Source: Isoetes taiwanensis (Eukaryota > Streptophyta > Lycopodiopsida > Isoetales > Isoetaceae). Taken from it: a stretch of 64,000 nt of DNA. The notes beneath the pieces were generated by a model. That model was not told the origin of the DNA, searched no databases, and saw only the letters and a program-made list of their open reading frames with translations. Positions 3,237 through 63,618 of this stretch are shown piece by piece. The position numbers and the translations under genes were made by a program. The first letter of the stretch is position 1. Each line of letters starts with the position of its first letter. Location of the stretch: contig JAJEKV010000095.1 of assembly GCA_021234155.1 (NCBI GenBank), positions 3,300,621 to 3,364,620 on the forward strand, given 5' to 3'.

Positions 3237-3311
3237 TGTAGGAGCTTTTTCATATTATTTTATAGTCCCTACTAGTAATGGTGCCCAGCGTTGCTGGGCA
3301 TAAATTGAGAA

Positions 3312-3450
3312 CCTTTAAATTCTCCCTTTATTCATTCTCCCTTTTTTCTAACCCCCTTCTCCCTCCCTTTACCTTCCCTTCCCCTTCCCCTTTTTTGTCT
3401 CTCTTTTTCTGATCGCCTTTTTCCCTTCCTTTTTCCACTACCCTTTTTTG

Positions 3451-3484
<34 letters not shown>

Positions 3485-4875
3485 GCACGATATTTTTATT
3501 TTTATTAATAGTATGTAAATAAATACATTTATTTAGGGCTCCAAAAAGCCAGATACCTAAACGTGTCAGAACACATGCTCGTGAACCCAGGTGTGGAGGT
3601 AGTAAACAACACCATTCTAGGGGATCATCCAAAGAAAATATCCCATAACACATGAAGACGATGCCACCTGAAACACCACCCGAGATTACAGATAGACCCT
3701 TTTTTGCTTTTTTCCCTTCCTTTTTCCACTACCCTTTTTTGCTTTTCTTTTCCCCTTCCTCTTCCTTTTCCTTTTCCTTTTCTCTTTCCCATTTCCATGC
3801 ATTTTTTTCGTTCTCTTTTGCTTACCTTTTCATGTGCCCTTTTCTTCCTTTCCCCACCCTCTTCCTCTTGATCACGTGCCCTTTTCCCCATCTGTTTTTC
3901 CCATTTCCCTCTCCCCTTTTCCTCATGCCCTTTTTGCTTTCCCTTCCCTTTTTCGCTTCCCATTTCCGCTTCCCTTTTCCTTTCAACTTTCCATTCCCTT
4001 TTCATACTTTCCAATCTACCCTTTAGGCTTTTGGGTGCCCTTTTTAATTTTCCTTTTCCCTTTCATCTTCCTTTTCATTTTCCCTTTACGGTTCCGTTCC
4101 TTAGAGTTTTTCATATGCCTCTTTCCATTCCTTTTTCTCAACCTTTTTTTATGTGCCCCTTTTTCCTTCTTTCCCCATCCTCTTCCCCTTTTCCCCTTTC
4201 CTATTTTTCTTTTTTTTCCCTTTCCCATACTCTTTTTCCCTTTCTTTTTCCCATTTCCTCACCCTTTTTCTTCCCTTTTTAGAGAACCCTTTTTCCTTCC
4301 TCTTTTTTTTCCTCTTTATCTTTTTTCTTGCTCCCCTACCCTTTGCCTATTTGACCTTCCCCTCCACCCTTTTCCTCCATTTTCCATCCTTTGCCTCTCT
4401 CTTTGCATTGATGCTCTTTTGGCACATTTTTCTCTTTCTTCAACCCTCCTCTTTTCTTCATTTTTTGGTTCCGCCCTTTCCTTTTCCTAATTTTTTCAAG
4501 TTCCCTTTTCCCAAGTTCTCTTTTGCCCTTTTCCCCCTCTTTTTCTTTTTCCTTTCCCTTTTCCTTTTCCTATTCCTTTTGTTCATCTCCTTCTTCCCAA
4601 CCTTTTCTTATTTTCCCTTACCTTTTTCTCCTTTTCCCAATCCTTACTTCTTACCCTTCTCGATTGCCTTTTTTTCCCTTCCCTTTCCCCCTCCCTATTC
4701 CTTTTTTCTATTTTGGGCTTTTTTCTATTTCCTTTTATCTTTTCCTTTTTTTCTTTTCTCCTTCTCTTTCCCTTTTCCTCTTCCTTACCTTTTTTTTATT
4801 CCTTTTCCTTCTTCCCCATTTTTATTTTTTATTTTTTCTTTTCCTTTTTTTTCATATTGTCATTTCTCCTTTTCC

Positions 4876-4910
<35 letters not shown>

Positions 4911-4990
4911 TCCTTTTGTCTTTTCTCCCTCCCTTTTCCTTTTCTTTCAATTTCCCCTCTCCTTTTCTCTTCCCCTTTCCCTTTTCCCTT
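3312..4990. repeat. Pyrimidine tract of Helitron A, first block
   Basis: Almost pure C/T on the plus strand, mostly TTTTCCC, TTCCTTTT and CCTTTTTC runs, interrupted by a SINE-like insertion at 3452-3708. A (CTTT)n microsatellite lies at about 4876-4912. Long frames full of Pro, Phe, Leu and Ser (or Lys/Glu/Gly on the other strand) are by-products of this composition and are not genes. Confidence 0.9.
3452..3708 (-). mobile_element. SINE-like retroposon in Helitron A
   Basis: A 30-nt T run (3452-3481) on the plus strand is the poly(A) tail of a minus-strand insertion of about 257 bp with non-pyrimidine sequence. It is flanked by an identical 34-bp direct repeat (3418-3451 and 3709-3742), a clear target duplication. 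Its body shares the aataaatacattttatttagggctc region and the tccaaagaaaat region with the sequence at 6325. Family unknown; it may be a LINE 3'-end derivative. Confidence 0.7.
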
Positions 4991-5194
4991 TCATCGTTTG
5001 ACCATCGGATTGAGTGAATCATATTGAAGCCATAGCAATTTTAGTTGAAGACACGCATATATTATCTCTACCGTTGGTCAATCAAATCCTCGACCGTTCG
5101 ATCTAGGGCATAGCTAGGAACTGTAAATGATATACTGGAGCAATCATTAAATGGATTCACGCTTTTAAAATTAGATAATCAAGAGCATTTGACC

Positions 5195-7385
5195 ACATTT
5201 TCCACTTCCCCTTACCTTTTCTCTTTCCCTTTGCCTTTACTTTTCTTTTTCTATTTTTCCCTTGCCCCTTTTCCCTTTTTATATTTTCCAATTTACCTTT
5301 TTCTTTTTCCATTATTCGATTTTCTTCATCTCCCTTTTTTGTTTTCTGCTTCCCTGTTTTTCCTTTTCTATTTTCCCCTTCCCTTTTCTCCAATTTATGG
5401 TTGCTCTTTTTTCGCTTTTCCTGTGCCCTTTCCCCCCTCCCTTTTCCCATTTCCCTCTTCCTCCTTTTCTCGTGCTCTTTTTTCCAAGTTTTTCTTCCCC
5501 CTTTCCCCTTTCCGTTCCCTTTTCCCTTTCTTTTTCCTTTCCCTTTTCCCTATTCTCACCACCTTTTCTTTTTTTCCCCTTTTCCCTTCATTTTCCCTCC
5601 TTTCCCTAGCCCTTCCGTCTTCCCTTTTTTCTAATGCCCTTTTCCCCTCTCTTTTTTCTTTTTGCTCTTTCCATTTTTCCTTCCTTTCTCCCCTTTCCTC
5701 ACCTTTTCCCTCTTCCCTTTTTTCCCATATCCCTTTTCTCTTCTATTTTCCCATGCTTTTTTTCGATCCTCTTTTCCCCTTTCTTCACATTTTTCCTCTT
5801 CTTCCTCCTCCCCCCTCATTTTCCCTCTTTTCCTTCTCTTTTTCTTTTTCTATTTTGCTATTCCTTTTCGTTCACCTCCCCTTTCTATTTTGCCTTTTTC
5901 TATTTGCTTTTTTCCTCTTTTTTTCCGTTTGCCTTTTCCATGATTGAGAACAAATTGCTTTTCCCCTTTTTTCTATCTCCCCCTTCCTTTTTCCCTCTCC
6001 TTTTCGGATTCCTTTTTCCTTTTACCTTTTCTTATTTTACTTTTCTCCCATCCCACCCTAGACTTCCTTTCCCCTTCCCTTGAGTTTTTGAATTCTTTTC
6101 CTGAATGGCTTTTCCTTTCATGGGGCCGACACAGTCGCCTTGCTATTGCTGGTGCGCTGTTTGAAGCGTACAGATTCGAGAACGATTTAAATTCAGGAGG
6201 AGATTACTTTTCATTAGTTGGCTAGCTTTTTTCTAAACACCTCCCTCCCTTTACCTGGCGTTTTCTCACCCTTTTTGGTCTCTTTTTCTCTCCTTTTTGC
6301 CTTCCTTTTTCCTTTTTCCTTTTCTTTTTTTTTTTGACTTAATATCCTCTTTTTATCTTTTATTAATTTTAAGAATAAATACATTTTATTTAGGGCTCTT
6401 ATGGTCTAGTGGTTTGACCTTTTTTTCATGTTATGTCATTTCCCCTTTCCAGGTAGTTTCTTTTTACTTTATTTCTAGTCGTGAAGATCCAAAGAAAATG
6501 CGTCCCGTAACAGTCGGCCTTGAGAACCTCAATTTCCCATTGTAGAAGATTCCGGTTTCCCTTTTTCCTTTTTTCCCTTCCTTTTTCCATGCTTTTTGCT
6601 TCTTGCAATAGCATGGATTTTTGGATGTGTAGTCTTCCTTTTCGCTTTTTTCAGTGTGGTTTTAATTCGGGCGGGGTGATTATGTTTTATTTTGTTTGTA
6701 GGGCTTGGGTCCATGTTTCAGTAAGGGACTTCGGTCCTTCTTGTATTTATGGTCCCTGCTTCCGATTGGGCTCGTGGGCGTTAAAAGTGTCTTCCTTCCT
6801 TCCTTCCTTCCTTTTTCCTCCTCTCCCAACCCTTTCTCTCTTCTTCTTTTTTTCGTGCCCTTTTCCCTTCCATTTCCTCTCGTCCACTTCCTTTTTTTCT
6901 TTTATTTTTTCCTTTTCTTTTTCTCATGTCTTTTTGCTTCCCTTTATTTCTCTTTCCCTTTTCTGATTGCCCTTTCTTCCTTCCCTTTGCCCACCCCTTT
7001 CCCTCTTCATCGTAGTCTTTTTCCTTACCTTTCCTCCCTCAATGTTCTTTTCCTTTTCCCTTTTCCCCTGTCCTCCCTCCTTTCTCTCTTCCTTTTTTCC
7101 GCTTCTCTTTTCCTTCTTTTCTCTTGCTCTTTTCCCGATGCCCGTTTTCCCTTTTCCCCTCCTTTTCCTTTTCCCTTTCCCTTCTCTTTTCTATCTTAAC
7201 TCACCCTTTTCCTTCTCAGTGTCATTTTTGTTCTCCCCCTTCCCCATTTCTCTTCCCTTTACCTTTTCCATGCCCCTTTGCTTTCCCTTTCCATTTTCCC
7301 TTTCCCTTTTTCCTCCCTTTTCTTTTTTCTTCAGTTTCCCCTCTCTTTTCCTTTCTTTCCTTTTTCCCTTCCATTTTCCCTTTTC
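5195..7385. repeat. Pyrimidine tract of Helitron A, second block
   Basis: A second long C/T-rich block on the plus strand. It is broken by three ordinary-composition islands: about 6085-6240, 6325-6555 (SINE-like) and 6600-6790. The first and last islands could be captured host fragments but I recognise no product. Simple CTTC repeats lie near 6791-6812. Confidence 0.85.
6325..6555 (-). mobile_element. SINE-like retroposon, second copy
   Basis: An 11-nt T run at 6325-6335 is followed by sequence resembling the element at 3452: taataaatac-type AT-rich part, tttatttagggctc, then gatccaaagaaaatgcgtccc. The right boundary is uncertain and I cannot see a clean target duplication. Confidence 0.5.
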
Positions 7386-7938
7386 CCTTCAATCCTTTAA
7401 CTGTCGGATTGCACAAATCATATTGAAGCAACGACCAAGATGAAAGTTTGGTTGAAAACACACACACGGCATCTTCACCGTTGATCCATCAAATCCTCAA
7501 CCGTCCGATCTAGGGCACCATTCACAACGGACATACGGTATAATTTTATAATATAAGATCAATACGTCCATTCGATTAATATTTAGAGTTTGTCATTCAG
7601 ATTCCCTACGCACTCTTCCACTGACGCAATATTCTAGAGTTTATACATAGCCCCCATTAGTGGCACACCAATGCTCGACATTGTTACTCATTCACATTTT
7701 AATTCTTTCAATTTTTTATGATATCAAGTTTAAGCATGGAAAAACACGGTGATTGAGCAAATCTTGTCGCTTTATGCCTTGGCATAATCATTTAATTTGG
7801 ACTTATTAGAAGAACAACCATTCCTGCATCTTATTGTACGACCACAATATTTTTTTGCGAACTGGATTATGAGATGCATTTGATTGAGTTGGTTGTATGT
7901 GCTTGTTAATTAAGAAGGTATTCATTTGTATTACTTGT

Positions 7939-8009
7939 GTATTGGTGGTCTAGTGGTAGAATAGTACCCTGCCACGGTACAGACCCGAGTTCGATTCTCG
8001 GCCAATGCA
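7939..8009 (+). tRNA. tRNA-Gly(GCC), best glycine copy
   Basis: 71 nt with intact A box (GGTCTAGTGGTAG), GCC anticodon in a perfect 5-bp stem, intact B box (GTTCGATTC) and discriminator A. The only oddity is T2 facing G71, a wobble pair in the acceptor stem. It belongs to the unit between Helitrons A and B. Confidence 0.93.
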
Positions 8010-8086
8010 TCCTGTGGTTCAACTCTTCTAATTTTGTTCTTGGTGCAAGAGCCAAAAAGAAGATTCAATGTATTAAACTATGTTGA

Positions 8087-10299
8087 TCTTATATTATAAA
8101 GTTTTAGCGTATGTCATGAATCAAACCCTAATTTGGATGGTTGAGATCAACTAATTGCATCCGAAGACCGAGATTTATCACACGACTTCCCACCATCATG
8201 GGAGAAAAAGGCAAAATGAAAGGCAAAAGGCACGGGTAAAAGAAAAAGAAAGAAAGGGAAAAGAGCATGAAAAAGGGAAGGGAAAATAAAGAAAAAAAGG
8301 ACACTACAAAAATGAGAAGATGGAAAGGATGAGGATAGGAGTAAAAGGGAAGTTGAAAAGGGGATGAGGAAAAGGGTAGAGAGGAGGGAAGGGAAAAGGA
8401 AAAGGGAAAAGAAAAGAAAAAGGGAAAAAGAAAAAGGAAAAGAAAAGGGAGGATTAGGGGAGCCTAAAAAGGAACATTGGGAAAGGGGAAGAGGAAAAAG
8501 GTGGGGGAAAAGGAGAAAAAGGAGGAGAAAAGGAACAAAGTGAAAGGAAAAAAGGAGTAAAAAGGAAAAAAAATGGCAAAAAGCACAAAAAAAGATAAAG
8601 GAAAAGAAAGGGAGAAAAAGAAAGGAAAAAAGGAATTGACAAAAAAGGAGAAGAGGGAAATTCTAGAGGTGAGGACGGGGAGTAAAAGGGAAGGAAAAGG
8701 GGGATGAGGAAAAAGGGTAGAGAGAAGGGAAGGGAAAAAGGAAAAGAGAAAAGGGAGAGGAAAAGGGGCAAAAGGGAGAGGAGGAGGGAAAAAGGACAAT
8801 GGGAAAGGGGAAGAGGAAAAGGTCGAGAAAGGAGAGAAAAAGGAAGGAAAAAGGACTCAAACAAATTTTAAAGAGATAAAGGGAGGGAGAAGGGATGGAA
8901 AGAAAAAAAGGGAGGGAGGGGCAAAAGGGGAAAAGGGCAAAAAAGAGGAAGAGAAAAGAAGGAGAGAAGCGGAAAAAAGGAAGAGAGAAAAGAGGGAGGA
9001 AAGGGGAAAAGGAAAAAGAAAAGAACAAAGACGGAAGAAAGGGAAAGAAAAAGACTACGAGAAAAAGGGAAGAGGGAAAGGATGGGCAAAGTTAAGGAAG
9101 AAATGGGTTGTAAAAGGGGGAAGAGAAATAAAGGAATGGAAAAAGACATGAGAAAAAGAAAGGGAAAAAGGTAAGGAAAAGGAGGCGGAAGAGAGGGAAA
9201 TGGAAGGGAAAAAGGACACGAATAAAAGCGGAAGAGAGAAAGGGTCAGGAGAGGAGGAAAAGGGAAGGGAAAAAGGCCATTAGTAAAAAAGAAAGAAAAA
9301 GACAAAGGAAAAGGGAAAAGGGGAAAGGGAAGCGAGAAGGATGGAATGGGAGAAAAGAAAAAATAAAATAAAGTAAAAGGAAAAAGGAATGAAAATGGGA
9401 GGGAAAAGGGAAAGGGGGAGATAGAAAAAGGAAAAAGCAAGGAGAAGGAAAATGGAAAAGGCAAACGTGAAAAAGGGGGAAAAAGCAAATGGAAAAAGGC
9501 AAAAGGGAGGTAAAATGCGAAAATAGAAAGGGGAGGTGAACAAAAAGGAAGAGCAAAATAGAAAAAGAAAAAGAGAAGGAAAAAAGGAAAAGGAAGGGGA
9601 GGAGGGAAAATGTGAAGAAAGGGAAAAGAGAGGAAGGGAAACAAAGCATGAAAAAAAATGGAGAAAAGGGACATGGCAAAAAAGGGAAGAGGGAAAGGGT
9701 GAGGAAAGGGGAAAACCCGAAGGAAAAATGGACATGGAAAAAGGGAAAGATGGAAAAGAAAAAAGGAGGGGGGGAAGGAAAGAAAAAGGGCACTAGAAAG
9801 AAGGGAAGACGGAAGGGCTGGGCAAAGGAGGAAAAGGGAAGGGAAAAAGGGGGAAAAAGAAAATGTAGGGAGAAGGGAAGGGAAAAGGGAAAGGAAAGGG
9901 GAAAGGGGAAAGAAAAACTTAGAAAAAAGGGCACGAGGAAAAGGGGGAGAGGGAAATTGGAAAAGAGAGGTGGAAAGGGCAGAGGGAAAGGAAAAAGGGC
10001 AACCACAAATTGGAGAAAAGGGAAGGGGAAAATAGAAAAGGAAAAATGGGGAAGCAAAAAACAGAAAAGGGAAATAGGGGAAATGGAATAATGGAAAAAG
10101 AAAGGGGCAAAGGGAAAATAGAAAAAAAAAAAAATAGTAGACAAAGGCAAAAGGAAAAGGGAAAAGTAAGGGGAAGTGCGAAATGTGTTCGAATGCTCTT
10201 GCTTATCTAATTTTAAAAACATGAATCCATTTAACAATTGCTCCAGTATATCATTCACAGTTCTTAGCTATGCCCAGCAACGCTGGGCACCTTAACTAG
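8087..10299 (+). mobile_element. Helitron B, non-autonomous
   Basis: It starts TCTTATATTATAAAG at 8087 and ends hairpin GCCCAGC-AAC-GCTGGGC, ACCTTAA, CTAG at 10296-10299. Host bases A(8086) and T(10300) rejoin as tgttga|taatgacataagg, the normal tRNA-unit spacer. Length is 2213 bp. The body (about 8195-10165) is nearly all A/G on the plus strand. About 80 bp before the hairpin (gctcttgcttatctaatttt) match the minus strand of Helitron A near 5106-5185, so A and B are the same family. No helicase gene is present. Confidence 0.9.
8195..10165. repeat. Purine tract of Helitron B
   Basis: About 2 kb of A/G sequence on the plus strand (gggaaaagg, gaaaaagggaag and similar) with only scattered pyrimidines. 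Both strands throw up long artefactual frames. Orientation relative to the Helitron ends matches that in Helitrons A, D and E. Confidence 0.92.
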
Positions 10300-10475: not shown

Positions 10476-10480
10476 CGTCG
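10476..10480. repeat. Copia target-site duplication, left
   Basis: CGTCG directly before the 5' LTR; the same five bases follow the 3' LTR at 19549-19553. The last G is nucleotide 1 of the tRNA-Ser gene that resumes after the element. Confidence 0.93.
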
Positions 10481-10697: not shown

Positions 10698-10826
10698 TCC
10701 TATATTATAATGTTATCCAGTGTTGAATCACGCCCTAAATCGGGCGGCTAGGATTGACTTACCAGATCCGATGGTACAACACTCTAAAAACCTTTTTTCG
10801 TCATCGAAGGGTAAAGCTGCTATGCC

Positions 10827-11108
10827 ATGGTGAACAGATCAACCACGGCTTTCTTGGTCTTTGATCCATATTATGGCATGCACCGCCTTGGAGGAATGGA
10901 ACATATATATATTCCATTAAACCTCTGTCTGCTTCAACCGGAAACATCGTCCTTTCATGAAGTAAGCTCCGCTTTCTTATTTTTTTTCCTTCCTTTATTT
11001 TCTATTCCATCCAATACCTTCTTATGCAGGAAAACTTTTGAGTTGTTCCTTGCATCCACGAAGCTCAAGTTTACAGAAGATGAGCAGTATGCAAAAGAAC
11101 TGACATGA
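10827..11108 (+). other. Exon/intron-like segment in Helitron C
   Basis: An open stretch of 93 codons is seen. A possible short intron (gtaagc at 10962 to tgcag at 11029, pyrimidine-rich before the AG) lies inside it, which fits captured genic DNA. I do not recognise the product. It lies upstream of the PPR pseudogene and may belong to the same donor gene. Confidence 0.25.
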
Positions 11109-11464
11109 AAATAAAGGATTGGATTTTTTGTTGAGTATACATGTAAAAGACGATTTGTGGCAGTTGGAAGGAGGTCACCAAGACGACGCCATTGTGCATT
11201 TCGCCCCCCGTTTTTGGTATTTTGGAATATGCCTGAAGATATCCTGGTTCTTTCACTCAAAAGGAAATTGCTTGCTTAGCGTTCTGCTCAAAGGTGGGTG
11301 GGCAAAGGAACTGTCTGCGATTTCTTTATGTAGGCACTTTTTGAATAGAAATATGGTCGTGCATTCCTGTGGATTTCTCTGTACTTGGGATATTGGGGTT
11401 AACCAATTTTTTTGTCATACAGAGAGTGGGTCGGAGCACAAGATCATTGTAGAGGAACAGAGAA

Positions 11465-12937
11465 ATGAAAAGCTTGGCATCAGCAAGGCAAGCTCATGCT
11501 AAGCTTCTTAAGGCCCACGTTAAGCCCAGCATCATTTCATGGAACAATCTTATGAACATGTATGCCAAGTATGGTTGCTTAAAGGCTGCATGTGAAATCT
11601 TTGATAGGATGTTGGCACATAACGTGTTTAGTTGGACTATAATAATTACAGGATATGTACAAGATGGAGGAGGTACTGAGGCACTTCAATGTTTCTTGCA
11701 AATGCAACAGAAGGCATTCACCGCACAAGGTAACCTTTGTCACCGTGTGTAAGTGCATGTGTTATGCTTCAAGATTTAGCAAATGGAAAGCTGGTGCATT
11801 GCAACATCCTGAAGTGCCAATGTGGTTCACATATTCCTTTGGTGAATAATTTAATTAACATGTATTGTAGATGTGGAAACATACAAGATGCTTGCCATAT
11901 ATTGACGTGATACATGTGCATGATGTTGTGGCTTGGGCGCCATGATTGTAGGATATGCCCATCATGGACAAGGTAGAGAAGCACTCAAACTTCCAGAACG
12001 TATGCAACTTGAAAACATCAAGATGAACAACTTTGTATTATCCGGGCTTCGATTGCATGTTGTCTAAGTTGCATCTCTTTGATATGGTAAATGGTTACAT
12101 TGTCACGCTTTTACAAAGTGGCTCAAGCTGATTCTATTTTGTCAAATGGTCCGGTTGACATGTATGCAAAATGTGGAAGCATCTATTATTCTTGCATTGT
12201 CTTTGACAGGTTGTTTATACAAGATGTTGTATCATGGACCGCAATAATTCTTTGGATTTGATTATTCTTGTGGCAACAAAGAGGGAATTAAACTTTTTCA
12301 ACAAATGCAACAGGTTGGCGTGGAACCAAATGAAATAACATTCCAAGGCATCATGTGTGCATGTGCCAATGAGGCCGCTCTAGGACAAGGTAAATTTGTT
12401 CATACCATGATCCTTAAAGCCAAAATAGTTTTGGACCACTCTGTAGGTAATGCTCTCATCAATATGTATGTAGAGTGTCAAAGCATGCGTGACGCCTGCA
12501 AAATCTTTGACCGATTGTCTGGGCGTGATGTTGTGTCATGGAGTGCAATGATCGCAGGGTCTATAGAGTTTGGTCAGAAGAAAGATGTGCTTAAGGTATT
12601 TAAACACATGGATCTGGAGAATGTGGAGCCAAGTATAGTAACTTACATAATTGCAGTGAATGTATGTGCAGTTTTAAAAGACTTTGAAATGGGAAAAAAC
12701 CTTCATGCTAAATTTATTGAAAGTGGTCAAGAACTGGATCTGTTCCTTGGAAATAGCCTTATTGATATGTATGCTAAGTGTGGGAGCCTGGAGAGTGCCC
12801 TCCAAGTGTTTGGCAAGTTAGCTTTGAAGGATATTATATCATGGACTGCATTGATTGCAGCATATGCGCATCATGGCAGCGCTAATGATGCCTTTCATGT
12901 CTTTGCACTAATGCAAGAAGCTGGTATGAAGCCATGA
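11465..12937 (+). pseudogene. PPR (PLS-class) pseudogene captured by Helitron C
   Basis: The translation shows successive pentatricopeptide motifs typical of plant organelle RNA-processing proteins: WNNLMNMYAKYGCLKAACEI and FDRMLAHNVFSWTIIITGYV in the first part, then NALINMYVECQSMRDACKIF, RDVVSWSAMIAGS, NSLIDMYAKCGSLESALQVF and DIISWTALIAAYAHHG in the last 210 codons (12305-12937). Between about 11740 and 12300 the PPR reading jumps frames and hits stops, although fragments such as DMYAKCGS remain recognisable. The C-terminal E/DYW part is not seen. Live PPR proteins of this class are usually imported into mitochondria or plastids. This copy cannot make one and lies within Helitron ends, so it is a transduplicate. 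Confidence 0.85.
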
Positions 12938-15168
12938 TTTGGCTAGGCTACATGCGTTAATTCAGTGTGGAACTATTGCAGAAGTTGATGTTATGTGTTA
13001 TGAGAAGTGCTCAACTTTGCATGAAGTATTATTTCAGATGCCCTGCAAGAATTGCAAATGGCACGAATGGTGGAGGTTTTCTACCAGATAAAATGTTTGA
13101 AAGAAGCAGCTCCAACAGAAGGCCAGATTTTAGGTATTTTCCTTTCAAAATCATTCCTAGCATTCATTTATCTATGTTATTTGTTCGTGATGATTGATAT
13201 TGCCTCACTTAATCTTGGAGTATGTTAAATGCTTGCAGAACATGCCTTATGTTTTGTTCCTTCCAAGCAAGCTCTAGGGTCCTGTGATTTCTTGCTCAGT
13301 GAAGGTACATAATTTTATCAAACTCATTGATGTTGCTTTAGCAATCTTCCTAGATACTTTGTTCCTATCCTTCAAGGATTTGGTTCTATATAGACCTATA
13401 ACTATTATAGGCCAAATGTTAAACGAATCCATGCTAAGGTTTCTCAATTATCATGCACATTCTAGAAAAACTTGATTTTCTTATGAATGCTGGCAATCTC
13501 TTAACCTTTTGCTTATTTCATGCAATGCAAATTTTATTTAAATGCACTAGAAGAGTTTGAGTTTGGAAAAACCTCATAAATAGTGCCCCTCAAGGATGGA
13601 CGGGTTGTGATATCAGAAAAATGGTTTAAGTGTTTACATGTCCGGCCAGAACGGGAGAGACAAGACAATCAAGACAATCCTACTAAAAGGTTTGATTTTC
13701 TTATGAATGTTTCTCCCAATCTAGTTTAACCTTTTGCTTATTTAGCAAAGGTAATGCAAATTTTCCTTAAATGCACTAGAAGAGTTTGAGTTTGGGAAAA
13801 CCACATAAATAGTGCCCCTCAAGGATGGAACTTCAAATTGTTGATATCAGGAAAAATGGTTTAAGTATGTTTACATGTCACAAAAGCGAGAGACAAGATA
13901 AACTTTCCATGAGTTCCATCCATGGACGGGAGAGAAAAGACAATTTATTTCAGGTTCCATCCATGTTCTCTCCCAAACGTAGTTGATGACTTAGTGCCAA
14001 GTGTTGAGATCGAGAAGACGATAGGAAAGGTAATGAAAGAAAATTATAAAACGAAAAGTAGTCTCCAATGTGGGATTTTTTTCCGACAATTGCCTTAGGC
14101 TTGCTTGAGATATGAGAAACATGCGTAGGTCTCAGCATACATACAATCTGTATAGAACTTCAAATAGTTGATAATAGTACATGCTTCAATAATGCCCTGC
14201 AAAAGGAGTGAAAAGAAATGAGGTATCCTTTTGTCACAATCACAAAACGGGTCATAAAATATATCTTTCCATGAGTTTCTATTTTTTTGCAAAATACATA
14301 GCTTATTGGCAATTGATATGCTTCAATAATGCTCTGCAAAAGGAGAGTGAAAAGAAATGAGGTATCCTTTTGTCACAATCACAAAATGGGTCATAAAATA
14401 TATCTTTCCATGAGTTTCTGTTTTATGCAAAATACATAGCTTATTGGCAATTGATACGAAGGGATATTGTTAACCTAATTGATTAAGTCTTTACATGTTC
14501 AAAAGGCAATTCAATTATTCACAATAATAATTATACAAGCAAAGACTATTCTATGCCAATGTTAACAACACATACAACCTCATATCAAAAGTAAACAACC
14601 AAGATTGCGTCAAAAAGAAAAAGGCCTCCATGAAGAAAGGATAAAAAACAAAGGTAAGGAAGGGAGGGGAAAGCGAGGAGAAAATGTAAAAGGGAAAAAA
14701 TAGAGAAAAGCAAGGGAAGGAAAAAAATAAGATGAATGCGCACAAACCTCTTATTGCCCAGCAATGCTGGCTTGGTTTCTATTAATTACATTTCTTTTAC
14801 TTGGCCATGGCTTGGTTTCTATTAATTACATTTTTTTTACTTGGCCATGTAGAAGCTACCAAAAACCTTCTACACAACAACCAAAAACCTTATGCACAAC
14901 AACATTGTATCTCTCTACCTTGATCTTCTAAGCGTAAAGAGGGTAATTTCTAAATGCAAACGGGGTGCTTTACTTCAACATAGAGGAATATTATCGGTAT
15001 TATTTTGCAAGAGATTAAAGACCGGGGCCAAAGGAAAGGGCTTTAGAATACGCTATATTTTTAAAAACTACTGAGCTAAAACAAATCCGTTAGGACGTCT
15101 TATCATTCTCTTGAACATCATTTACACGTCCTTAACTTATGCCCAGCAACGCTGGGCACCGTTACTAG

Positions 15169-26245: not shown

Positions 26246-26616
26246 ATTGAGGGGGGCAGAGGGTACCAGATAGGGCTTACAGGCCCTAACCAGAATCTAT
26301 CATTGAAAAGGATGGGGGGAAGCTGGAGGGGAAGGGGCGCAGAAAACAAGAAACAAGGGGACATTGTTATTCACATTTTAATTCTTTCAATTTTTTATGA
26401 TATCAAGTTCAAGCATGGAAAAACACAGTGATTTCGCAAATTTTATCGCTTTATGCCTTGGCATAATCATTTGTTTGGACTTATTAGAAGAACAACCATT
26501 CTTGCACCTTATTGTACGACCACGATATTTTTTTGAGAACTGGATTATGAGATGCATTTGATTGAGTTGGTTGTCTGTGCTTGTTAATTAAGAAGGTATT
26601 CATTTGTATTACTTGT

Positions 26617-26686
26617 GCATTGTGGTCTAGTGGTAGAATAGTACCGCCACTTGCATGCACCCGAAGTTCGATTCTCGGCCAATGCA
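26617..26686 (+). pseudogene. tRNA-Gly pseudogene
   Basis: The A box (GGTCTAGTGGTAG) and B box (GTTCGATTC) remain, but the acceptor lacks one G and the anticodon arm reads GTACCGCCACTTGCATGCACC, which cannot form the normal stem. Confidence 0.82.
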
Positions 26687-26930
26687 TCCTGTGGTTCAAC
26701 TCTTCCAATTTTGTTCTTGGCGCAAGAGCCAAAAAGAAGATTTAATGCATGATAATGACATAAGGATAACTGAGCAATCGATTGCACCATAGTGAGAAAT
26801 GAGATCGAAACTAATCTTGCTCTTCCAACCATCAAACATCACAATGAGAGAGAACAAATGACTAGCCAAATCCTATCCTCCTAAATATTTCAATGATCTA
26901 AGAAGAAACGGAAGTATTCTACATGCCGTG

Positions 26931-27012
26931 GTGGATGTGCCAGAGTGGTTATTGGGCATGACTAGAAATCACGTGGGCTTTGCTCGCATAGGTTCGAATC
27001 CTATCATCCACG
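26931..27012 (+). tRNA. tRNA-Ser(AGA)
   Basis: 82 nt, acceptor and T arm perfect, anticodon AGA. One mismatch in the anticodon stem (TCACG instead of TCATG). Intact A and B boxes and a downstream T run. Confidence 0.87.
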
Positions 27013-27403
27013 TATAGGAGCTTTTTCATATTATTTTATAGTCCGTACTATCACATACGTCCATTCGTTTAATATTTAGAGTTTGTCATTCATATTCCCC
27101 ACACACTCTTCCACTGACGCAAGATTCTAGAGTTTATGCATAGCCCCCATTAGTGGCACACCAATGCTCGACATTGTTACTCATTCACATGTTAATTCTT
27201 TCAATTTTTTATGATATCAAGTTCAAGCATGGAAGAACACGGTGATTGAGCAAATCTTGTCGCTTTATGCCTTGGCATAATCGTTTGTTTGGACCTTATT
27301 GTACGACCACGATATTTTTTTGAGAACTGGATTATGAGATGCATTTGATTGAGTTGGTTGTATGTGCTTGTTAATTAAGAAGGTATTCATTTGTATTACT
27401 TGT

Positions 27404-27474
27404 GCATTGGTGGTCTAGTGGTAGAATAGTACCTTGCCACGGTACAGACCCGAGTTCAATTCTCTGCCAATGCA
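27404..27474 (+). tRNA. tRNA-Gly(GCC), T arm weakened
   Basis: Acceptor and GCC anticodon stem intact (loop CTTGCCA-type change outside the anticodon). The B box reads GTTCAATTC and the T stem reads CTCTG instead of CTCGG, so the T arm has a mismatch and promoter strength is doubtful. Confidence 0.78.
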
Positions 27475-27728
27475 TCCTGTGGTTCAACTCTTCCAATTTT
27501 GTTCTTGGCGCAAGAGCCAAAAAGAAGATTTAATGCATTAAACCATGTTGATAATGACATAAGGATAACTGAGCAATCGATTGCACCATAATGTGAGAAA
27601 TGAGATTGAAGCTAATCTCGCTCTTCCAACCATCAAACATCACAATGAGAGAGAAGAAATGACTAGCCTCCTATCTTCCTAAATATCTCAATGATCTAAG
27701 AAGAATCGGAAGTATTCTACATGCTGGA

Positions 27729-27810
27729 GTGGATGTGCCAGAGTGGTTATTGGGCATGACTAGAAATCATGTGGACTTTGCTCGCATAGGTTCGAATCCT
27801 ATTATCCACG
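27729..27810 (+). tRNA. tRNA-Ser(AGA)
   Basis: 82 nt with AGA anticodon and intact A and B boxes. G7 pairs with T66 as a wobble (TATCCAC). The variable arm has one change (TGGAC for TGGGC). A T run follows. Confidence 0.88.
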
Positions 27811-28120
27811 TGTAGGAGCTTTTTCATATTATTTTATAGTCCGTACTACCACATACGTCCATTCGATTAATATTTAGAGTTTGTCATTCATATTCCCCAC
27901 GTGACGCAATATTCTAGAGTTTATGCATAGCCCCCATTAGTGGCACACCAATGCTCGACATTGTTACTCATTCACATGTTAATTCTTTCAATTTTTTATG
28001 ATATCAAGTTCAAGCATGGAAAAACACGGTGATTGAGCAAATCTTGTCGCTTTATGCCTTGGCATAATCATTTGTTTGGACTTATTAGAACAACCATTCC
28101 TGCACGGTGCTCAATTAAAG

Positions 28121-28209
28121 GCATCTCATAATCCAGTTCTCAAAAAATTATCGTGGTCGTACTTATTGTACGACCACGATAATTTTTTGAGAACTGGATT
28201 ATGAGATGC
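28121..28209. repeat. 42-bp perfect inverted repeat
   Basis: Left arm 28121-28162 and right arm 28168-28209 are exact reverse complements (gcatctcataatcc... against ...ggattatgagatgc) around the 5-nt spacer TTATT. The arm is part of the normal tRNA-unit spacer, so this is a local inverted duplication found only in this unit. Confidence 0.95.
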
Positions 28210-28270
28210 ATTTGATTGAGTTGGTTGTATGTGCTTGTTAATTAAGAAGGTATTCATTTGTATTACTTGT

Positions 28271-28341
28271 GCATTGGTGGTCTAGTAGTAGAATAGTACC
28301 CTGCCACGGTACAGACCCGAGTTCGATTCTCGGCCAATGCA
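28271..28341 (+). tRNA. tRNA-Gly(GCC)
   Basis: 71 nt with perfect acceptor, anticodon and T stems, GCC anticodon and discriminator A. One D-loop change (AGTAGTAG instead of AGTGGTAG) alters an invariant G. Otherwise equal to the best copies. Confidence 0.9.
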
Positions 28342-28606
28342 TCCTGTGGTTCAACTCTTCCAATTTTGTTCTTGGCGCAAGAGCCAAAAAGAAGATTTAA
28401 TGACATAAACCATCAAACCATGTTGATAATGACATAAGGATAACTGAGCAATCGATTGCACCATAGTGTGAGAAATGAGATCGAAGCTAATCTTGTTCTT
28501 CCAACCATCAAACATCACAATGAGAGAGAACAAATGACTAGCCAAATCCTATCCTCCTAAATATTTCAATGATCTAAGAAGAAACGGAAGTATTCCACAT
28601 GCCGTC

Positions 28607-28644
28607 GTGGATGTGCCAGAGTGGTTATTGGGCATGACTAGAAA
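28607..28644 (+). pseudogene. tRNA-Ser 5' half cut by Helitron E
   Basis: The first 38 nt of tRNA-Ser(AGA), up to CTAGAAA of the anticodon loop, are present. Helitron E then begins (CTAG at 28645) exactly between A and the expected T. The matching 3' half (tcatgtgggc...) is not found at a Helitron 5' end within the window. Confidence 0.93.
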
Positions 28645-28784
28645 CTAGTAATGGTGCCCAGCGTTGCTGGGCAAACGTTGGGAACCTCTCAATGATATGT
28701 GGTCTTTATTGAGATAAGGTTTTTTCTCATACATGCAAACTTATCAATGATCTTATAAAGGTTTTTTCTCAACCTTTTTATGTG

Positions 28785-30167
28785 TTAATTTTTCCTTCTT
28801 TCCCCATCCTCTTCCCCTTTTTCCCCTTTCCACTTTCTCCTTTCTTGTTTCTTTTTTCTTTTCCCTTTCCCACACTCTTTTTCCCTTTCTTTTTTCTATT
28901 TCCTCACCCTTTCCCTTTTCCCTTTTTCTCGTGAGATTTTTCTCCTTCCTCTTTTCCTCTTTTTCCTATTCCTTGCTCCCTACCCTTTGTCTATTCTACT
29001 TTCCCCCCACCTTTTTCCTCATTTTTTCATCCTTTCCCTCTTCCTTTTTTCTCGATGCAAAAAGAAGATTTTTTGCTTTCCTTTTTCTCTTTCTTCACCC
29101 TTTTTCTTTTCCCTTTTTTTTTCACGCCCTTTCCTTTTTTCTCTTTTTCTCGTTCCCTTTTTCCCAAGTTCTCTTTTTTCCCTTTTCCTTTTTACTTTTC
29201 TTTTTCCCATAGACTTTTGCAACCTTTTCTTATTTTCCCTTACCTTTTCTCCTTTTCTCACCTTTTACTTCTTACCCTTCTCATGATTGCTCTTTTTCCT
29301 TTCCCTTTCCCCCTCGCCTATTCTATTCCTTTTTCTATTTCCTTTTATCTTTCCCTTTTTCCTTTTCTCCTTCTCTTTCCTTTTTCCTCTTACCTTTCTT
29401 TTATTCCTTTTCCCTTTCATCGTTTTTCCTTTTCCCTTCCTTTTCCCTTTTCCTTTTCCCTTTTCCTTTTTTTTCCCTTTCATCGTTTTTCCTTTTCCCT
29501 TTCATCGTTTTTCCTATTCCCTTCCCCTCTTCCTTTTCCCTTTTCCCTTTTCGCTTTCATCGTTTCTCCTTTTCCCTTCCCCTCTTCCTTTTCCCTTTTC
29601 CTTTTCCCTTTCATCGTTTTTCCTTTTCCCTTCCCCTTTTCCTTTTCCCTTTTCCCTTTCATCGTTTTTCTTTTTTCCCTTCCCTTTTTTCCTTTTCCTT
29701 TTCCCTTTTCCTTTTTTTTTTTTTTTTTTTTTTTTTTTTGAAGGCAAGCTATTTTTAATTTATAGTAGTAAATGGTACATGACCTTATCAGAGGCTCCAC
29801 AATAGGCCTGATAGGAATTTGTATAAGCACTTGGTCACCAGATAGAAAGCATTTAACCATGTAATGATCCCTTAATGGATCAGATAGTAATTCTGCACTA
29901 TAACCCAGATGCGTGAGCAGAAAATAGCATAACTCCAAGACAACCATTCGAAGCAGGAAATCTTGTGACGGACTGAAGACAAGACACCACCTAAAGCTCC
30001 ACCCCGAAGATTCAGGTAGATGGAAACAAGTGCAAGGAGGCTTCCTTCCGCGCGTTGTTTTTCCTTTTCCCTTCCCCTTTTCCTTTTCCCTTTTCCCTTT
30101 CATCGTTTTTCCTTTTCCCTTCCCCTTCCCCTTTTCCTTTTCCCTTTTCCCTTTTCCTTTTCCTTTT

Positions 30168-30169
<2 letters not shown>
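28785..30169. repeat. Pyrimidine tract and minisatellite of Helitron E
   Basis: C/T-rich on the plus strand (28785-29711 and 30057-30169). From about 29415 it becomes a minisatellite-like series in which tttcatcgtttttcc recurs at roughly 20-60 bp spacing (29415, 29477, 29500, 29609, 29660, 30098). The same ccctttcatcg motif ends the tract in Helitron A (4988), so these may be repeated Helitron 5'-module edges. Confidence 0.85.
29712..30056 (-). mobile_element. SINE-like retroposon, copy 1
   Basis: A 28-nt T run (29712-29739) followed by gaaggcaagctatttttaat and about 310 bp ending gcgcgtt at 30056. The part near the far end (ggtggagctttaggtggtgt on the minus strand) resembles the element at 3452, suggesting one family. 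It is the uninterrupted copy used to prove the Helitron F empty site. Confidence 0.65.
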
Positions 30170-30198
<29 letters not shown>

Positions 30199-39899: not shown

Positions 39900-40216
39900 G
39901 TGGGCTTTCATATTTTATAATTATCGTCCATTCGATTAATATTTGAGGTTTGTCCATTCAGTTCATGGCTCTTCCGTATGATATTACAGGATTTAATGCG
40001 ACATTTAGTTCTTTCAATTTTGGTGATATCAAGTTCAAAGGCATGGCAAAACCACGATTGATTAAACGTCTTGTCACTTTATGCCTTGGGATAATCATTT
40101 GTTTGGACTGTTAGAAGCAACCATTCCACTTATCGACCACGATATTTTGAAAGCTGGATTCGAGGTCATTGATTAGGTTAGTTTATGATGAGTAAAGGTA
40201 TTCATTTATTACTTAT

Positions 40217-40275
40217 TGCGGTAGTGGTCAAGTGAGTAGAATAATTACCTTACGATCGGACGAGTTCCGATTCAT
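40217..40275 (+). pseudogene. tRNA-Gly remnant
   Basis: Located at the expected position after tattcattt-attactta: gtagtggtcaagtgagtaga, ataattacctta and gagttccgattc remain from the glycine gene. No anticodon stem can form. Confidence 0.55.
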
Positions 40276-40503
40276 TAATAAGATCGTAGTTTTCATAATT
40301 TTGTTCTTGAAGCGCCAAAGATTAATACGTTAAACCATGATAATCGATAAGGATAAAGCGGTATCCGTTACACCATAGAATTGAAGTGATATCGAAATAA
40401 TCTTAAACCATCGAACCGAGGAATGGGGAGAGAGATAAATGACTAGCCGTCTATCCTCAAATATTTCAATGATCCCTGGAAGAATCGGAAATATTATCTT
40501 TAG

Positions 40504-40572
40504 GTGGATGTGCGGGTGGATTGGGCATGACTGAGAAATCGTAATGGGCTTTGTTCCAGATCTATCATCCGA
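40504..40572 (+). pseudogene. tRNA-Ser pseudogene, mirror of 63811
   Basis: GTGGATGTGC, ATTGGGCATGACT, GAGAAATCGTAATGGGCTTT and TCTATCATCC are kept. The T arm and part of the variable arm are lost. It is the left-arm partner of the intact minus-strand tRNA-Ser at 63811-63892. Confidence 0.75.
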
Positions 40573-40715
40573 TGGCTTTTCATATTATTTATAGTCGAAT
40601 TATCCACGTCCGATTCGATTAATGCGGTTGTCATTCCGTAATTGCCGGCCGCAATATTCGGTTTGTCACCATTTGTAGCGCAATCTCGACGGTATTACCG
40701 TGAATTGCTTTCAAG

Positions 40716-42134
40716 TCTTTATATTGCTCCATAAATTATGGGTCTTCGAACTAATTTGAATGGGGATCATCGGATGCATCAAACCGTTGTTACGACCGTG
40801 ATTGAGGATCGTAGCGGTCGCAAGGGTAAAATGAAAGAAGTGGAAAGAGATGCTGAAGAACTGGCATGGGAAAAGGGGAAAAGAGATTAAAGGAAAACAT
40901 GGGGATAAAGAGAAGAAAGGTATGGAAGCGAAAGAGGGAGGGAACACGGGAAGAACCACGAGGGAAGGAGGGAGAAGGATAAAGGGTGGAAAGATGCGTG
41001 GAATAAGGGGAAAGAGGAAATGGAAAGGAGAAAAAGCATGGAAGAGGGCAGCAGGGAAAGGAAAAGCGATGAAGAGGGAAAAGGAGGGACGAATAAGCGC
41101 GGAAGAGATGCATCGAGAAAGAGGGGAGTGAAGATTGGAAATGAAGGGGACAAAGGGGAATGAAAGGATGGGGAGGAGGGGAAAGAAAGGGCATGGAAGT
41201 GGGGAAGAAAAGGAAAGGGAGAAAAGGGGAACCCTAAGATTAAAGTCACAAGGAAAAGAAAAGATGAAACGAGGAAAAGGGAGTGGGAAGGGCATGAGAG
41301 AAAGGGAGAAGAGGAGATTGAAGAGAAAAGGGGAGAAGCGAGAAAGTTGGGGAAAAGAGGAGAATGGGTGTAGAGATAGAGAATCCGAAACAAATGCAAA
41401 AGGCATGGAAAATGGAAAGGAAAAGGGAAAGGGGAGAAAAGGGTCTACGAGGGAAAGGATCGACAAAGGAGGGAAAGCGGAAAATCCATCAAAGGAAAGA
41501 GGAGCCGGGGTGATGGAGGGAGGGGAGGACATGAGGGAAAGGAAAAGAAAAAGGAAGGGTTGGAAAAGAGGAGAAAAATTCACGGAAGAGGGAAAGAGAT
41601 TGGGAAAAAGGAGGAAAAGGCTCTGGGAAAATAGAAAGATTAGGAGAAAAAAGGCATGGGAAGGGGAAAGAATGGAAAGGGGGAAAAGAGAGCCGCGGAA
41701 AAATAAAGGGGAGAAAATGGAAAGGGGAAGAGAGGGAACATGGAAAAGGGAAAAGAGGGAAAGGGTCACGAGGATGGAAGGGGAAGATAAAAGGGCATGG
41801 AAGCGGGAGGAGAAAAGAAAAATGGAGAAAATACAAAAGGAGAATGGGAAAAGGAGGAAAAGAAAACCGACAGGAAAAGAGTGAAAAATAAAGGTTGAAG
41901 GAAAAGTGGGAAAAGGCATAAAAAAGAGGAAGGGGAAAAGAGCAGAAAAAGAAGAGGGAAAAGGTGGAGAAAGAGCAAAAGGAAGGAAAAGGTCTCAGAA
42001 CGGGGAAGGAAGAAAGAGATGGGAAAACAAAGGCTTATATAAGAAGAGCGAAAAATAGAAATCACGGGATAGAACAAAGGGAAAAGGATCGTTTCTCTTG
42101 CGTCAACTTATGCGGTATGGCTAATTTCCGGTAG
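40716..42134 (+). mobile_element. Helitron D', degraded mirror copy of Helitron D
   Basis: It begins TCTTTATATT at 40716 after host ctttcaa(g), then ctaatttgaatgg, gatcatc and ggatgcatc, all as in the minus strand of Helitron D. The purine tract runs 40825-42080. It ends near caacttatgc...gtag at 42134, with the hairpin destroyed, and host tttatgatatcag follows. The insertion site is the same as in Helitron D, so it is the same insertion duplicated. At about 1.42 kb it is shorter than D (1.84 kb). Confidence 0.82.
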
Positions 42135-42590
42135 TTTATGATATCAGTTCAAACGTAGAACGATTGATTGGAAATCTTGGCAAACTTTATGCTGCTTAAT
42201 CATTTGTTTGGACATTAGAAGAACGACCATTCCGCATATTATACGACCGGTATTCACGAGGCTGGATTATGAGAGATACGTTGAGTTAGGTTGGTTTATG
42301 TGGCATTAATTAGAAGGTATTCATTTGTATTACTTGTGCATTGGTGGTCTGGTGGTGAATAATTACCGCGGTCACCGGACTTCAGTTGATTCTTATTACA
42401 TCCGGTTTAACTGAATTTTGTTCTTGAAGCGCAAAATTAAAGATTTAATGCGTCGCCGACATGCAGGATAAGCGAACAATCGATTGGCCACCATAGATTA
42501 ATGAAATAGGATCGGAAATGCCAACCATCAAACATCCGCGAGAGAAGCGAAATCCATCGTATCAATGATCAGGAAATTATTATCTTTGGG
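42135..42590 (+). repeat. Damaged tRNA unit between Helitron D' and LINE-2'
   Basis: tRNA-unit sequence (tttatgatatcag, atcatttgtttgg, tattcatttgtattacttgt) with many indels. It is the mirror of 61225-61779. Confidence 0.8.
42338..42406 (+). pseudogene. tRNA-Gly pseudogene, mirror of 61483
   Basis: GCATTGGTGGTCTGGTGGTGA is recognisable. The anticodon region (taattaccgcggtcaccgg) is scrambled and the 3' acceptor strand is lost. Confidence 0.75.
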
Positions 42591-42719
42591 TTGCCTCCCA
42601 AAAAGTATTATCCCTTGAAGGTTGGAGGAAAAATGGCGATCATCCATTTTTCTTGATTTTTTGTCCCTCTGATTTTTGTTCAAACACCTTTCTTAGCATT
42701 CTCCTTAGAACTCTCGATT

Positions 42720-58021: not shown

Positions 58022-58056
58022 ATCCAAAAAAGAAGGAGAAAGGGCAAACAGGGAAG

Positions 58057-60336: not shown

Positions 60337-60670
60337 ATTTTCAAAATTCCCAAAGAGAATGGTGTCCTGAGGCTTCTCTTGAAAGGAATTTAAGCTTTAG
60401 AGGACAAAGGCTCGCTCTTGAGCGGAAAGATTGGCGAAAGAGTGAAGAAAAGCTAAATTTTTAGGGTTTTCCGTGAAATTAAAGGCCATCACAAAGGCTC
60501 AGGGTGATACAACAAAAGTAATTGAATGAAATTGAATGACGAAAAAGGGGGAAAAAGGACAAACAGGAGAAGAGACCACTAGAAAGAACCACAATTAGCT
60601 AAAAGAGATCGGATTGCCAAACCAGAAGCCAAGATTGTTCGATTCATGATTTCTTGCAACAAAAAACCAT

Positions 60671-61003
60671 TCAATAGCTGTAAATCCAATACAACACTTT
60701 TCCTAATTCTCTGAGTAAACCTTCACAATGAATTTTTTCTTCTGCCCAATCACAATTGACTCTGAAAATTCCTGTTGCTGAAACCTTGCTGTCACCTATA
60801 AATTCCTCCAACCAAGAATTAAGCATCTCTATTTCGAATTCAACGCAGCTAGGAACAAAGGTATACTCTTGCCGAAATAAGGAATCTGGAAAGAAAGTAT
60901 TGGTTACTAAAGATTTCCATAATTCTGAGGATGATCCTGATAGAAAACCACAGGTAAATCTCGGGCCATGCTTGAGAATTGTGAAAATTTTAACATCCAT
61001 CAA
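60671..61003 (-). pseudogene. Leader ORF of LINE-2, product unknown
   Basis: 110 codons upstream of ORF1 with MDVKIFTILKHG, FLSGSSSELWKSLVTNTFF, EYTFVPSCVEFEIEMLNSW and LEEFIGDSK. The mirror region at 42720-43224 encodes the same text with a different, longer ending, so at least one copy is frameshifted. No family recognised. Confidence 0.45.
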
Positions 61004-61482
61004 AAGCTCAGAGCGTGAGGAATGTGTTGATGCTGGCCCTCTACAAGGGCAGCCAGCAGATGTCTTTCAATTTCGATCCAATTCAAGCAAAAATCGGAGA
61101 GTTCCAAGGGAGAATTGCCAAGAAAGGTGTTTGAACAGAAAAAACTGGGAAAAGGACAAAAAAATCAAGAAAAATGGCGCACGTCATTTTTCTCCTCCAA
61201 CTGCCTCAAGGATACTTTAGAGGCACTCAGCATGTGGAATACTTCCGAGTCTTCTTAGATCATTGAGATATTTAGGAGGATAGGATTTCGCTAGTCATTT
61301 CTTCTCTCTCGTTGTGATGTTTGATGGTTAAAAGAGCAAGATTAGCTTCGATCTCATTTCTCACACTATGGTACAATCGATTGCTCAGTTATCCTTATGT
61401 CATTATCAACATGGTTTAATGCATTAAATCTTCTTTTTGGCTCTTGCGCCAAGAACAAAATTGGAAGAGTTGAACCACAGGA

Positions 61483-61553
61483 TGCATTGGCAGAGAATCG
61501 AACTCGAGTCTGTACCGTGGCAGGGTACTATTCTACCACTAGACCACCAATGC
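61483..61553 (-). tRNA. tRNA-Gly(GCC)
   Basis: 71 nt on the minus strand. Acceptor GCATTGG/CCAATGC, GCC anticodon and A box intact. The T stem has changes (CTCGAG...CTCTG), giving a wobble and a mismatch similar to the copy at 27404. B box GTTCGATTC kept. Confidence 0.85.
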
Positions 61554-61779
61554 ACAAGTAATACAAATGAATACCTTCTTAATTAACAAGCACATACAAC
61601 CAACTCAATCAAATGCATCTCATAATCCAGTTCTCAAAAAAATATCGTGGTCGTACAATAAGGTGCAGGAATGGTTGTTCTTCTAATAAGTCCAAACAAA
61701 TGATTATGCCAAGGCATAAAGCGACAAGATTTGCTCAATCACCGTGTTTTTCCATGCTTGAACTTGATATCATAAAAAA

Positions 61780-63618
61780 CTAGTAATGGTGCCCAGCGTT
61801 GCTGGGCATAAGTTGAGAGCCTGTAAATGCTTTGGGATGCAGTGAGAAAAGCCCTATCCCTTTCCCTTTCCCTTTTGCTCTATCCCGCATTTCATTTTTT
61901 CTTATTTTTTCTACTTTTTTTTTTCTTTTCCTTTTTTTTTCTCGTCTTTCTTACATGTTTCCTTGTTTTCCCATCTCTTTCCTTCCCCCTTCCCTGTTCC
62001 CGATAATCTTTTTCCCTTCCCTTTTGCTCTTTTCTCCACCTTTTCCCTCTTCTCTTTTTTCTTGCATTTTCCCTTCCCCTTTCTCTTTTTTTATGCCTTC
62101 TCTTTTCCCCACCCTTTTTCCATGTCTTCCCTTTTTCTCAACCTTTTACTCTTTCGCCCTTTTCCTTGCCTATTTTCCCTTCTCTTTTCCTCCTTTTCCC
62201 ATTCTTTTCCTCCTTTTTTTGTGTGGCCTTTTCCCTTCCATTTTTCTTTTCTCTCCCTCCCGTTTTCCATGCCCTTTTTACCTTCCCTTTTTCCATCTCC
62301 GCACCCTTTCCCTCTTTCCCTTTTCCATGTTCCCCTTTTCTCTTCCCCTTTTCCATTTTCCTCATTTCCTTTTTCCCGTGCCTCTCTCTCTTTCCCCCCT
62401 TTTCCATTCTTTTTTTTTTATATTTCCTCCTTTTCCCACCCTTTCCCTCTTTCCGTGCAATTTTCCCTTCTTTCAACCCTTCCTTTTTCTTTTCTCTTTT
62501 CCTTTCCTCATGTCCTTTTTCCCTTTCCCTCCCCTCCATCACTCCCCTGCTTCCCTTTCCCTTTTTTCCCGTTTCCTTTTCTTGATGGATTTTTTTCTTT
62601 CCGTTTTCCTCCTTTGCCGATCCTTTTCCTGTGCACTTTTTCCCTTACTTTCCTTTTCCTTTTCCATTTTTCCATGCCTTTTGCACATTTGTTTTATTCT
62701 CTTATTTCCTATACCCATTTTCCTCTTTTCCCCACCCTTTCTCTCTTGCCCCTTTTCTTTTCCCTTTTTTCTTTTTTCCCTTTCTTCACCATTTTCCTCT
62801 TCCCTTTTCTCTCATGCCCTTCCCCACTTCCCTTTTCTCGTTTCATCTTTCTTTTTCCTTGTGACTTTTACCTAGGTTCCCTTTCCCCCTTTTCCCTTTC
62901 CTTTTTCTTTCTTCTCACTTTCCTTTTTTCCATGCCCCTTTTCTTTTCCCCTCTCCCCATCCTTTTCTTGTTCCCCCTTGTCCCTTCCCTTTTTCTCATT
63001 TTTCCAACCTTTCACTCTTCCCCTTTTCTTGATGCATTTTTTCCCTTCCGTTTCCCTCTCTTTTTTTTTCCCTTTTCCTATGCCATTTGTCCCTTCCTTT
63101 TTCCTCTTTCTTCAATGCTTCTCTTTTTCCCCCTTTTCCCATGCTCCTTCCTTTTCCCATGCTTTTTTTCTCCTCCCCTTTTCCATGCTTTTTTTCTCCT
63201 TCATTTTCTCCTTTTTTTCAACCTTTTCCTCTTTCCTTTTTTTTTTTTCATGCCCTTTCCATTTACCTTTTCCACTTTATCTCTTCCTCCTTCCCTCGTG
63301 CCCTTTTCCCAAGTTCCCTTTCCCTTTTTCGTTTTCCATGCCTTTTTCTCTTCTCTTATCCCCATGTTTTCCCTTTTCTTTTTACCCTTTTCCCTTTTCC
63401 CCATGCCATTTTGCCCTTCACATTCTCTCTTTCCACTTCCCTTTTCCTTTTCCCCTTTTCATTTACCTTTTCCCCTTAAGAGATCGAAGCATGACCAATC
63501 ACAGTGCTGGTAAGTCGTGCAATAAATCTAGGCCTTCGGATGCATCCAGATGATCTCAGCCATTCAAATTAGGGCTCGATACACTACACACTTATGGTAT
63601 AACATTATAATATAAAGA
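61780..63618 (-). mobile_element. Helitron D, non-autonomous
   Basis: 3' end CTAG at 61780-61783 with the hairpin immediately inside (about 61791-61807). 5' end TC at 63618 with TTTATATTATAATG following on the minus strand. Host rejoins cataaaaaa|ttgaaag, the normal spacer reversed. Length is 1839 bp. The body 61850-63478 is pyrimidine on plus, hence purine on the sense strand. A minus-strand segment before the tract (ggatgcatccgaaggcctag) resembles Helitron B (tgcatccgaagaccgagat). Confidence 0.9.
61850..63478. repeat. Pyrimidine tract of Helitron D
   Basis: C/T tract of about 1.6 kb on the plus strand with recurrent ccatgc- and cttttccc-type words. The long Pro/Phe/Leu/Ser frame covering most of it is compositional. 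Confidence 0.9.

Follow-up and report, generated by a model that had tools for sequence, protein, structure and literature searches.

The window analysed here is a 64,000-nt stretch of the Isoetes taiwanensis genome (assembly GCA_021234155.1, contig JAJEKV010000095.1, C1106 in our numbering, positions 3300621-3364620), and it contains a tandem array of tRNA genes, Copia and non-long terminal repeat (non-LTR) reverse transcriptase frames, PPR sequence, and several members of a Helitron family with a recurrent hairpin at the 3' end. From the window alone, the initial annotation had proposed five elements with both ends visible and a sixth with one certain end, and all six were upheld. The two-ended elements are A (3272-7558, minus strand, 4,287 bp), B (8087-10299, plus strand, 2,213 bp), C (10698-15168, plus strand, 4,471 bp), F (30311-33496, plus strand, 3,186 bp) and D (61780-63618, minus strand, 1,839 bp). 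Element E (28645-35225, minus strand, extent inferred) has its certain 3' end at 28645 and contains F nested within it; no second host flank could be located for it within the window. The outer 5' end of E is broken at 35226 by another 5' end, that of element G (35226-35400, plus strand, the end coordinate marking only the stretch read), which is family-like, carries the 5' motif, is preceded by A, and was apparently inserted inside the 5' end of E. Downstream of G, the window holds no hairpin plus CTAG within four substitutions. The segment 35091-35189 of E resembles the 5' subterminal sequence of A.

The ends of the five two-ended elements were fixed by their empty sites. When the flanks of each element were joined and compared with the remaining window, uninterrupted copies of the target spanned the join in every case (eight rows for A, nine each for B and D, and one each for C and F), and each join was A^T, with neither target-site duplication nor loss, as the initial annotation had reconstructed. 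Some of the rows show divergence, which in three affects the join or its immediate neighbourhood: row 27746 of A has C after the join, row 2711 of D has T before it, and row 26665 of B shows a gap 3 nt ahead of it. Element C interrupts a Copia element in one of its LTRs, the other LTR serving as the empty site of C, and F sits in a repeat module of E, with the neighbouring module, 99% identical, as its empty site. Defined in this way, the elements start with TC and terminate in CTAG in five of five cases, and inspection of the printed ends by eye revealed no terminal inverted repeats.

Elements A, B and D and the certain end of E all lie within the tandem array (1-3271, 7559-8086, 26369-28644, 61228-61779 and 63619-64000), which is built of units of about 824 bp carrying tRNA-Gly(gcc) and tRNA-Ser(aga) genes and has been hit repeatedly by Helitrons and by one Copia element. 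This setting could suggest that the ends are edges of duplicated array segments rather than transposon ends. However, each of the four sites occupies a different position within the array unit, C and F have A^T joins although they lie outside the array, and these ends are present in thousands of copies across the genome. The evidence from C, from F and from the genome-wide counts contradicts this explanation, which has a negligible probability and was rejected.

The hairpin, GCCCAGC-AAC-GCTGGGC, is 17 nt long and has six exact matches in the window, at 3283-3299 (A), 10272-10288 (B), 15141-15157 (C), 28656-28672 (E), 33469-33485 (F) and 61791-61807 (D), compared with a mean of 0.00 in 100 shuffles. 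A variant with an extra nucleotide on each side of AAC had no matches in the window, because the hairpin loop is exactly three bases. In the orientation of the element, 7 nt separate each hairpin from CTAG, placing 11 nt between the end of the hairpin and the end of the element. This agrees with the canonical Helitron layout, in which a hairpin of about 16-20 nt lies some 10-15 nt ahead of a CTRR terminus, mostly CTAG. A search of the whole assembly (1.658 Gb in 1,110 contigs) for the hairpin, 7 nt and CTAG identified 5,531 ends, of which 5,497 (99.4%) were followed by T and 34 by A, C or G. The shared 3' ends described in the initial annotation are thus a genome-wide feature, and in place of the target-site duplications or variable flanks that it had named as grounds for doubt we found this nearly invariant T, together with A^T sites for the five window elements and for one Rep/helicase element. 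At the fifth position of the stem, the genome contains 5,497 A-T pairs, 1,986 G-C pairs, 45 A.C and 47 G.T combinations, indicating that the stem is conserved as a pair through compensatory change, although these counts represent copies and not independent events. The A-T-stem and G-C-stem groups have several spacer sequences in common in the printed lists.

The 5' ends are likewise repeated. The 5' motif ATCYTATATTATAANGTTNTA, related to the TC starts that had been noted in the window, has 2,401 matches in the genome versus none in the reversed control. Pairing of ends was examined with the 99 listed 3' ends and 57 listed 5' ends of contigs C1-C46. A 3' end on the same strand lies no more than 12 kb downstream for 24 of these 57 5' ends, 19 of the 24 at a distance of 1.4-3.7 kb; by comparison, a 3' end lies upstream on the same strand for four, and on the opposite strand, in either direction, for eleven. 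Among 19 loosely matched 5' ends from the window and the fetched loci, 17 are preceded by A, a base that the search pattern did not require.

No helicase frame was recognised by eye in the list of open reading frames for the window elements, and none of the 150 scored matches to the PF14214 profile (among 1,813 candidates) lies within the window, in agreement with the initial annotation. Potential partners were found elsewhere in the genome. Twelve Rep loci were fetched, comprising seven of the eight best PF14214 matches and five from further down, and about 6-7 kb was read from Rep onward. Three of the twelve (L010, L012 and L014) have a 3' end made of the family hairpin and CTAG|T, two (L016 and L020) end in GCCCGGC-AAC-GCCGGGC, and two (L018 and L019) end in GGCCCGGCC-GTCA-GGCCGGGCC. 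The last two groups of the same genome share the layout of the family, including the T after CTAG and a position downstream of Rep genes, but differ from it in the stem, and the GCCCGGC-AAC-GCCGGGC group carried no polypurine tract (see below) in 20 copies. Two of the three loci with the family hairpin also have a family-like 5' end starting with TC and preceded by A, delimiting elements of 7,540 and 7,403 bp; in the 7,540-bp element the 5' motif was matched only by a looser pattern. A Rep/helicase element sharing both ends, which the initial annotation had suggested looking for, therefore exists at two loci, with an exact 3' end and a 5' end recognised by a related motif after A. The first of these both-ended elements has PIF1 and Pif1_2B domains in separate frames, and its host site is represented by seven genome copies over the whole join (85-97% identity), the two inspected being A^T. 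In the second, an open frame of 903 aa contains a Helitron_like_N match (7.8e-62), followed only by a Pif1_2B match below its cut-off. The family thus has Rep/helicase relatives that share its ends, the frames being broken in those read. A PPR-like translated stretch was also seen by eye upstream of Rep in L010/L021, and may be another captured fragment.

Helentron or HINE-type rolling-circle elements also have no terminal inverted repeats of the cut-and-paste type and create no target duplication, and in these respects they resemble the window elements. Helentrons, however, insert into TT and have a different end layout. The family described here has A^T insertion, a TC start, a subterminal hairpin and a CTAG end, with Helitron_like_N and PIF1 matches in its partner proteins. 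An assignment to Helentrons or HINEs conflicts with its A^T sites and CTAG ends; we regard this assignment as very improbable and have rejected it.

We consider it highly probable that these are non-autonomous Helitrons of the canonical type, which Rep/PIF1-helicase Helitrons of the same genome mobilise in trans through shared ends, the polypurine sequence carried by some of them being most likely inherited. Several observations weigh against this interpretation. Five of the twelve Rep loci had no hairpin plus CTAG end of the kinds sought in the orientation of Rep (one of these five, L015, has the family hairpin on the opposite strand), and at the third locus with the same hairpin no 5' end of the family was seen within 5 kb upstream. 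In the first both-ended element, the Rep match contains one internal stop, the helicase parts of the Rep elements are broken by frame changes, and there was no intact Rep/helicase copy among the loci read. In addition, two of the 19 loosely matched 5' ends have no preceding A. One of these, in L046, stands directly behind the CTAG of another element. Near position 1340 of this locus in element orientation (C38:15238-18365), two polypurine Helitrons with different 3' types are arranged head to tail, with CTAG adjoining TC; since a Helitron forms an AT target at its own A|TC border, insertion there would create such tandems.

Under the accepted Helitron model, the transposase would nick one strand at its TC end, the helicase would then peel off the nicked strand, the 3' hairpin would act as the stop signal, and the freed strand would be inserted at a new site, between A and T, with no duplication of that site. 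For the window elements these activities would presumably be supplied in trans by Rep/helicase Helitrons of the same genome. We infer the rolling-circle steps, the stop function of the hairpin and the action in trans by analogy with Helraiser, for which excerpts of two papers (PMC4778049, PMC5876387) describe A-T junctions, a 3' hairpin serving as transposition terminator, the use of one strand, the generation of new 3' ends by read-through past the hairpin, and demonstrated rolling-circle transposition via circular intermediates. The anatomy of the Isoetes family matches what would be expected from Helraiser. According to the same excerpts, it shares with Helraiser/Helibat1 the TC and CTAG ends, a palindrome 11 nt before the 3' end, the A-T target and a RepHel transposase. 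The two differ in host, hairpin sequence and cargo, and activity has been shown for Helraiser, whereas the Isoetes family is known here from its sequence.

What is unusual about the family is its polypurine cargo. Elements A, B, D and E contain tracts that are 86-92% purine on the element strand, located at 8191-10195 in B, 61847-63481 in D and 28758-29766 in E; in A, pyrimidine tracts on the plus strand correspond to purine on the element strand. Using a criterion of at least 82% purine in the best 150-nt window upstream of the 3' end, we found a purine tract in 18 of 66 examined copies (7/26 and 11/40). The purines were on the TC...CTAG strand in 18 of 18, and none of the 66 copies had a pyrimidine tract by this 150-nt criterion. 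The first 26 copies were hand-picked, approximately every fourth of about 100 listed rows, and the next 40 were the other listed rows in order down to C24:362855, skipping C8:339905, C21:1911, C22:251982, C23:225073 and C23:322864. Neither a purine nor a pyrimidine tract was present in 20 copies of the G-C-stem group, which were the first 20 listed rows, or in 110 background pieces of the window. The lists for both stem groups cover the first contigs, and the copies drawn from them do not constitute a random genome sample. Comparison of 18/66 with 0/20 gives a Fisher probability of 0.009, for copies that are neither random nor independent; L067, L068 and L069, for example, print the same 3' region. 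Because of this relatedness, the binomial value for 18:0 is given no weight as evidence. Extrapolated to the full set of 5,497 ends, the fraction (interval 18-39%) would, if it holds throughout, give about 1,500 tract-bearing elements. One locus speaks against the strand rule: L043 has two pyrimidine tracts upstream of its purine tract, outside the scored stretch, which we read provisionally as belonging to an opposite-strand neighbour with a 3' end listed at C32:232311(-).

Such strand polarity raises the question of whether the tract itself is functional, the orientation having been selected because a displaced strand of A and G alone cannot fold, or because its transcript forms stable R-loops, either of which would make copying more efficient. 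The presence of tracts in 18 of 66 copies with several 3' end types, always with purine on the transferred strand, favours this idea, as does their absence from the 20 G-C-stem copies and the 110 background pieces. The copies are related, however, and the 18 of 18 do not represent independent trials, several of the tracts being homologous by descent. The G-C-stem group has likewise reached high numbers (1,986 ends), with no tract in the 20 copies sampled from it, and a purine content of 86-92% requires no selection, since transitions keep purines purines. We consider a functional tract unlikely, and view with similar doubt the broader proposal that strand-polarised polypurine DNA was selected as a better transposition substrate and has multiplied, perhaps to about 1,500 copies genome-wide.

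Most likely, the polypurine tracts are inherited cargo, with selection on them possible. If they descend from one or a few founders, a single strand orientation is to be expected. An early non-autonomous element may have taken up a purine-rich repeat, which would have spread along with the element and been transferred among 5' and 3' end types, its strand orientation being kept by descent. Similar 5' ends do occur with several 3' subterminal types, a mixture that fits an exchange of ends. Comparisons among the tracts yielded four groups above the best reversed-sequence control (408 bits), namely D with L025, L035, L043 and L046; L046up with L047; part of A with B; and part of A with E. The L027-L034 pair (384 bits) and the pairs between groups fell below the control, so that neither a single nor a multiple origin could be shown. 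Counts of transitions and transversions in the tracts were not used, because an alignment of purine-only sequence favours A/G mismatches.

This is a new Helitron family with textbook ends, target site and partners, the polypurine cargo being its one unusual feature. Published Helitron features match it, as described in excerpts of PMC4289320, PMC6591975, PMC4778049 and PMC5876387. With canonical plant Helitrons, as presented in the portions used of PMC6591975, it shares the 5' TC, the 3' CTAG, a GC-rich hairpin shortly before the 3' end, AT insertion without duplication, and Rep/helicase partners in the same genome; unlike them, it has its own end sequences and a polypurine tract in 18 of the 66 copies. 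No description of this family or of polypurine Helitrons was found in a literature search of mostly titles and the beginnings of abstracts of open papers, and the word Helitron does not appear in the main text of the genome papers for I. taiwanensis and I. sinensis (PMC8566536, PMC10541799). The family adds a large and well-bounded set of Helitrons in a lycophyte, and, with ends numbering in the thousands and exact empty sites, it is well suited to studies of terminator hairpins and end exchange. Its strand-polarised polypurine cargo raises the testable question of what single-strand transposition tolerates or favours.

The polypurine tracts, the structure of element A and the additional 5' end at 35226 had been absent from the initial annotation. 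Element A looks like two polypurine Helitrons fused near 5106 at a shared TGCCC, where the foot of one 3' hairpin leads directly into the 5' subterminal sequence of another Helitron, and a template switch or a deletion between neighbours could possibly have produced this arrangement. In element C, a PPR-like open frame (229 aa, 12248-12937; PPR_2, E = 5.1e-33) is probably a captured gene fragment. At about 40000-42600, a copy of the array together with a polypurine tract shows many small differences (about 77-84% identity, compared with 90-98% elsewhere), reflecting either strong decay or a poorly polished assembly. Finally, modules at 29700-30260 in E and 3444-3690 in A start with a long T run on the pyrimidine side and, by eye, resemble inserted SINEs whose A tail lies on the element strand.

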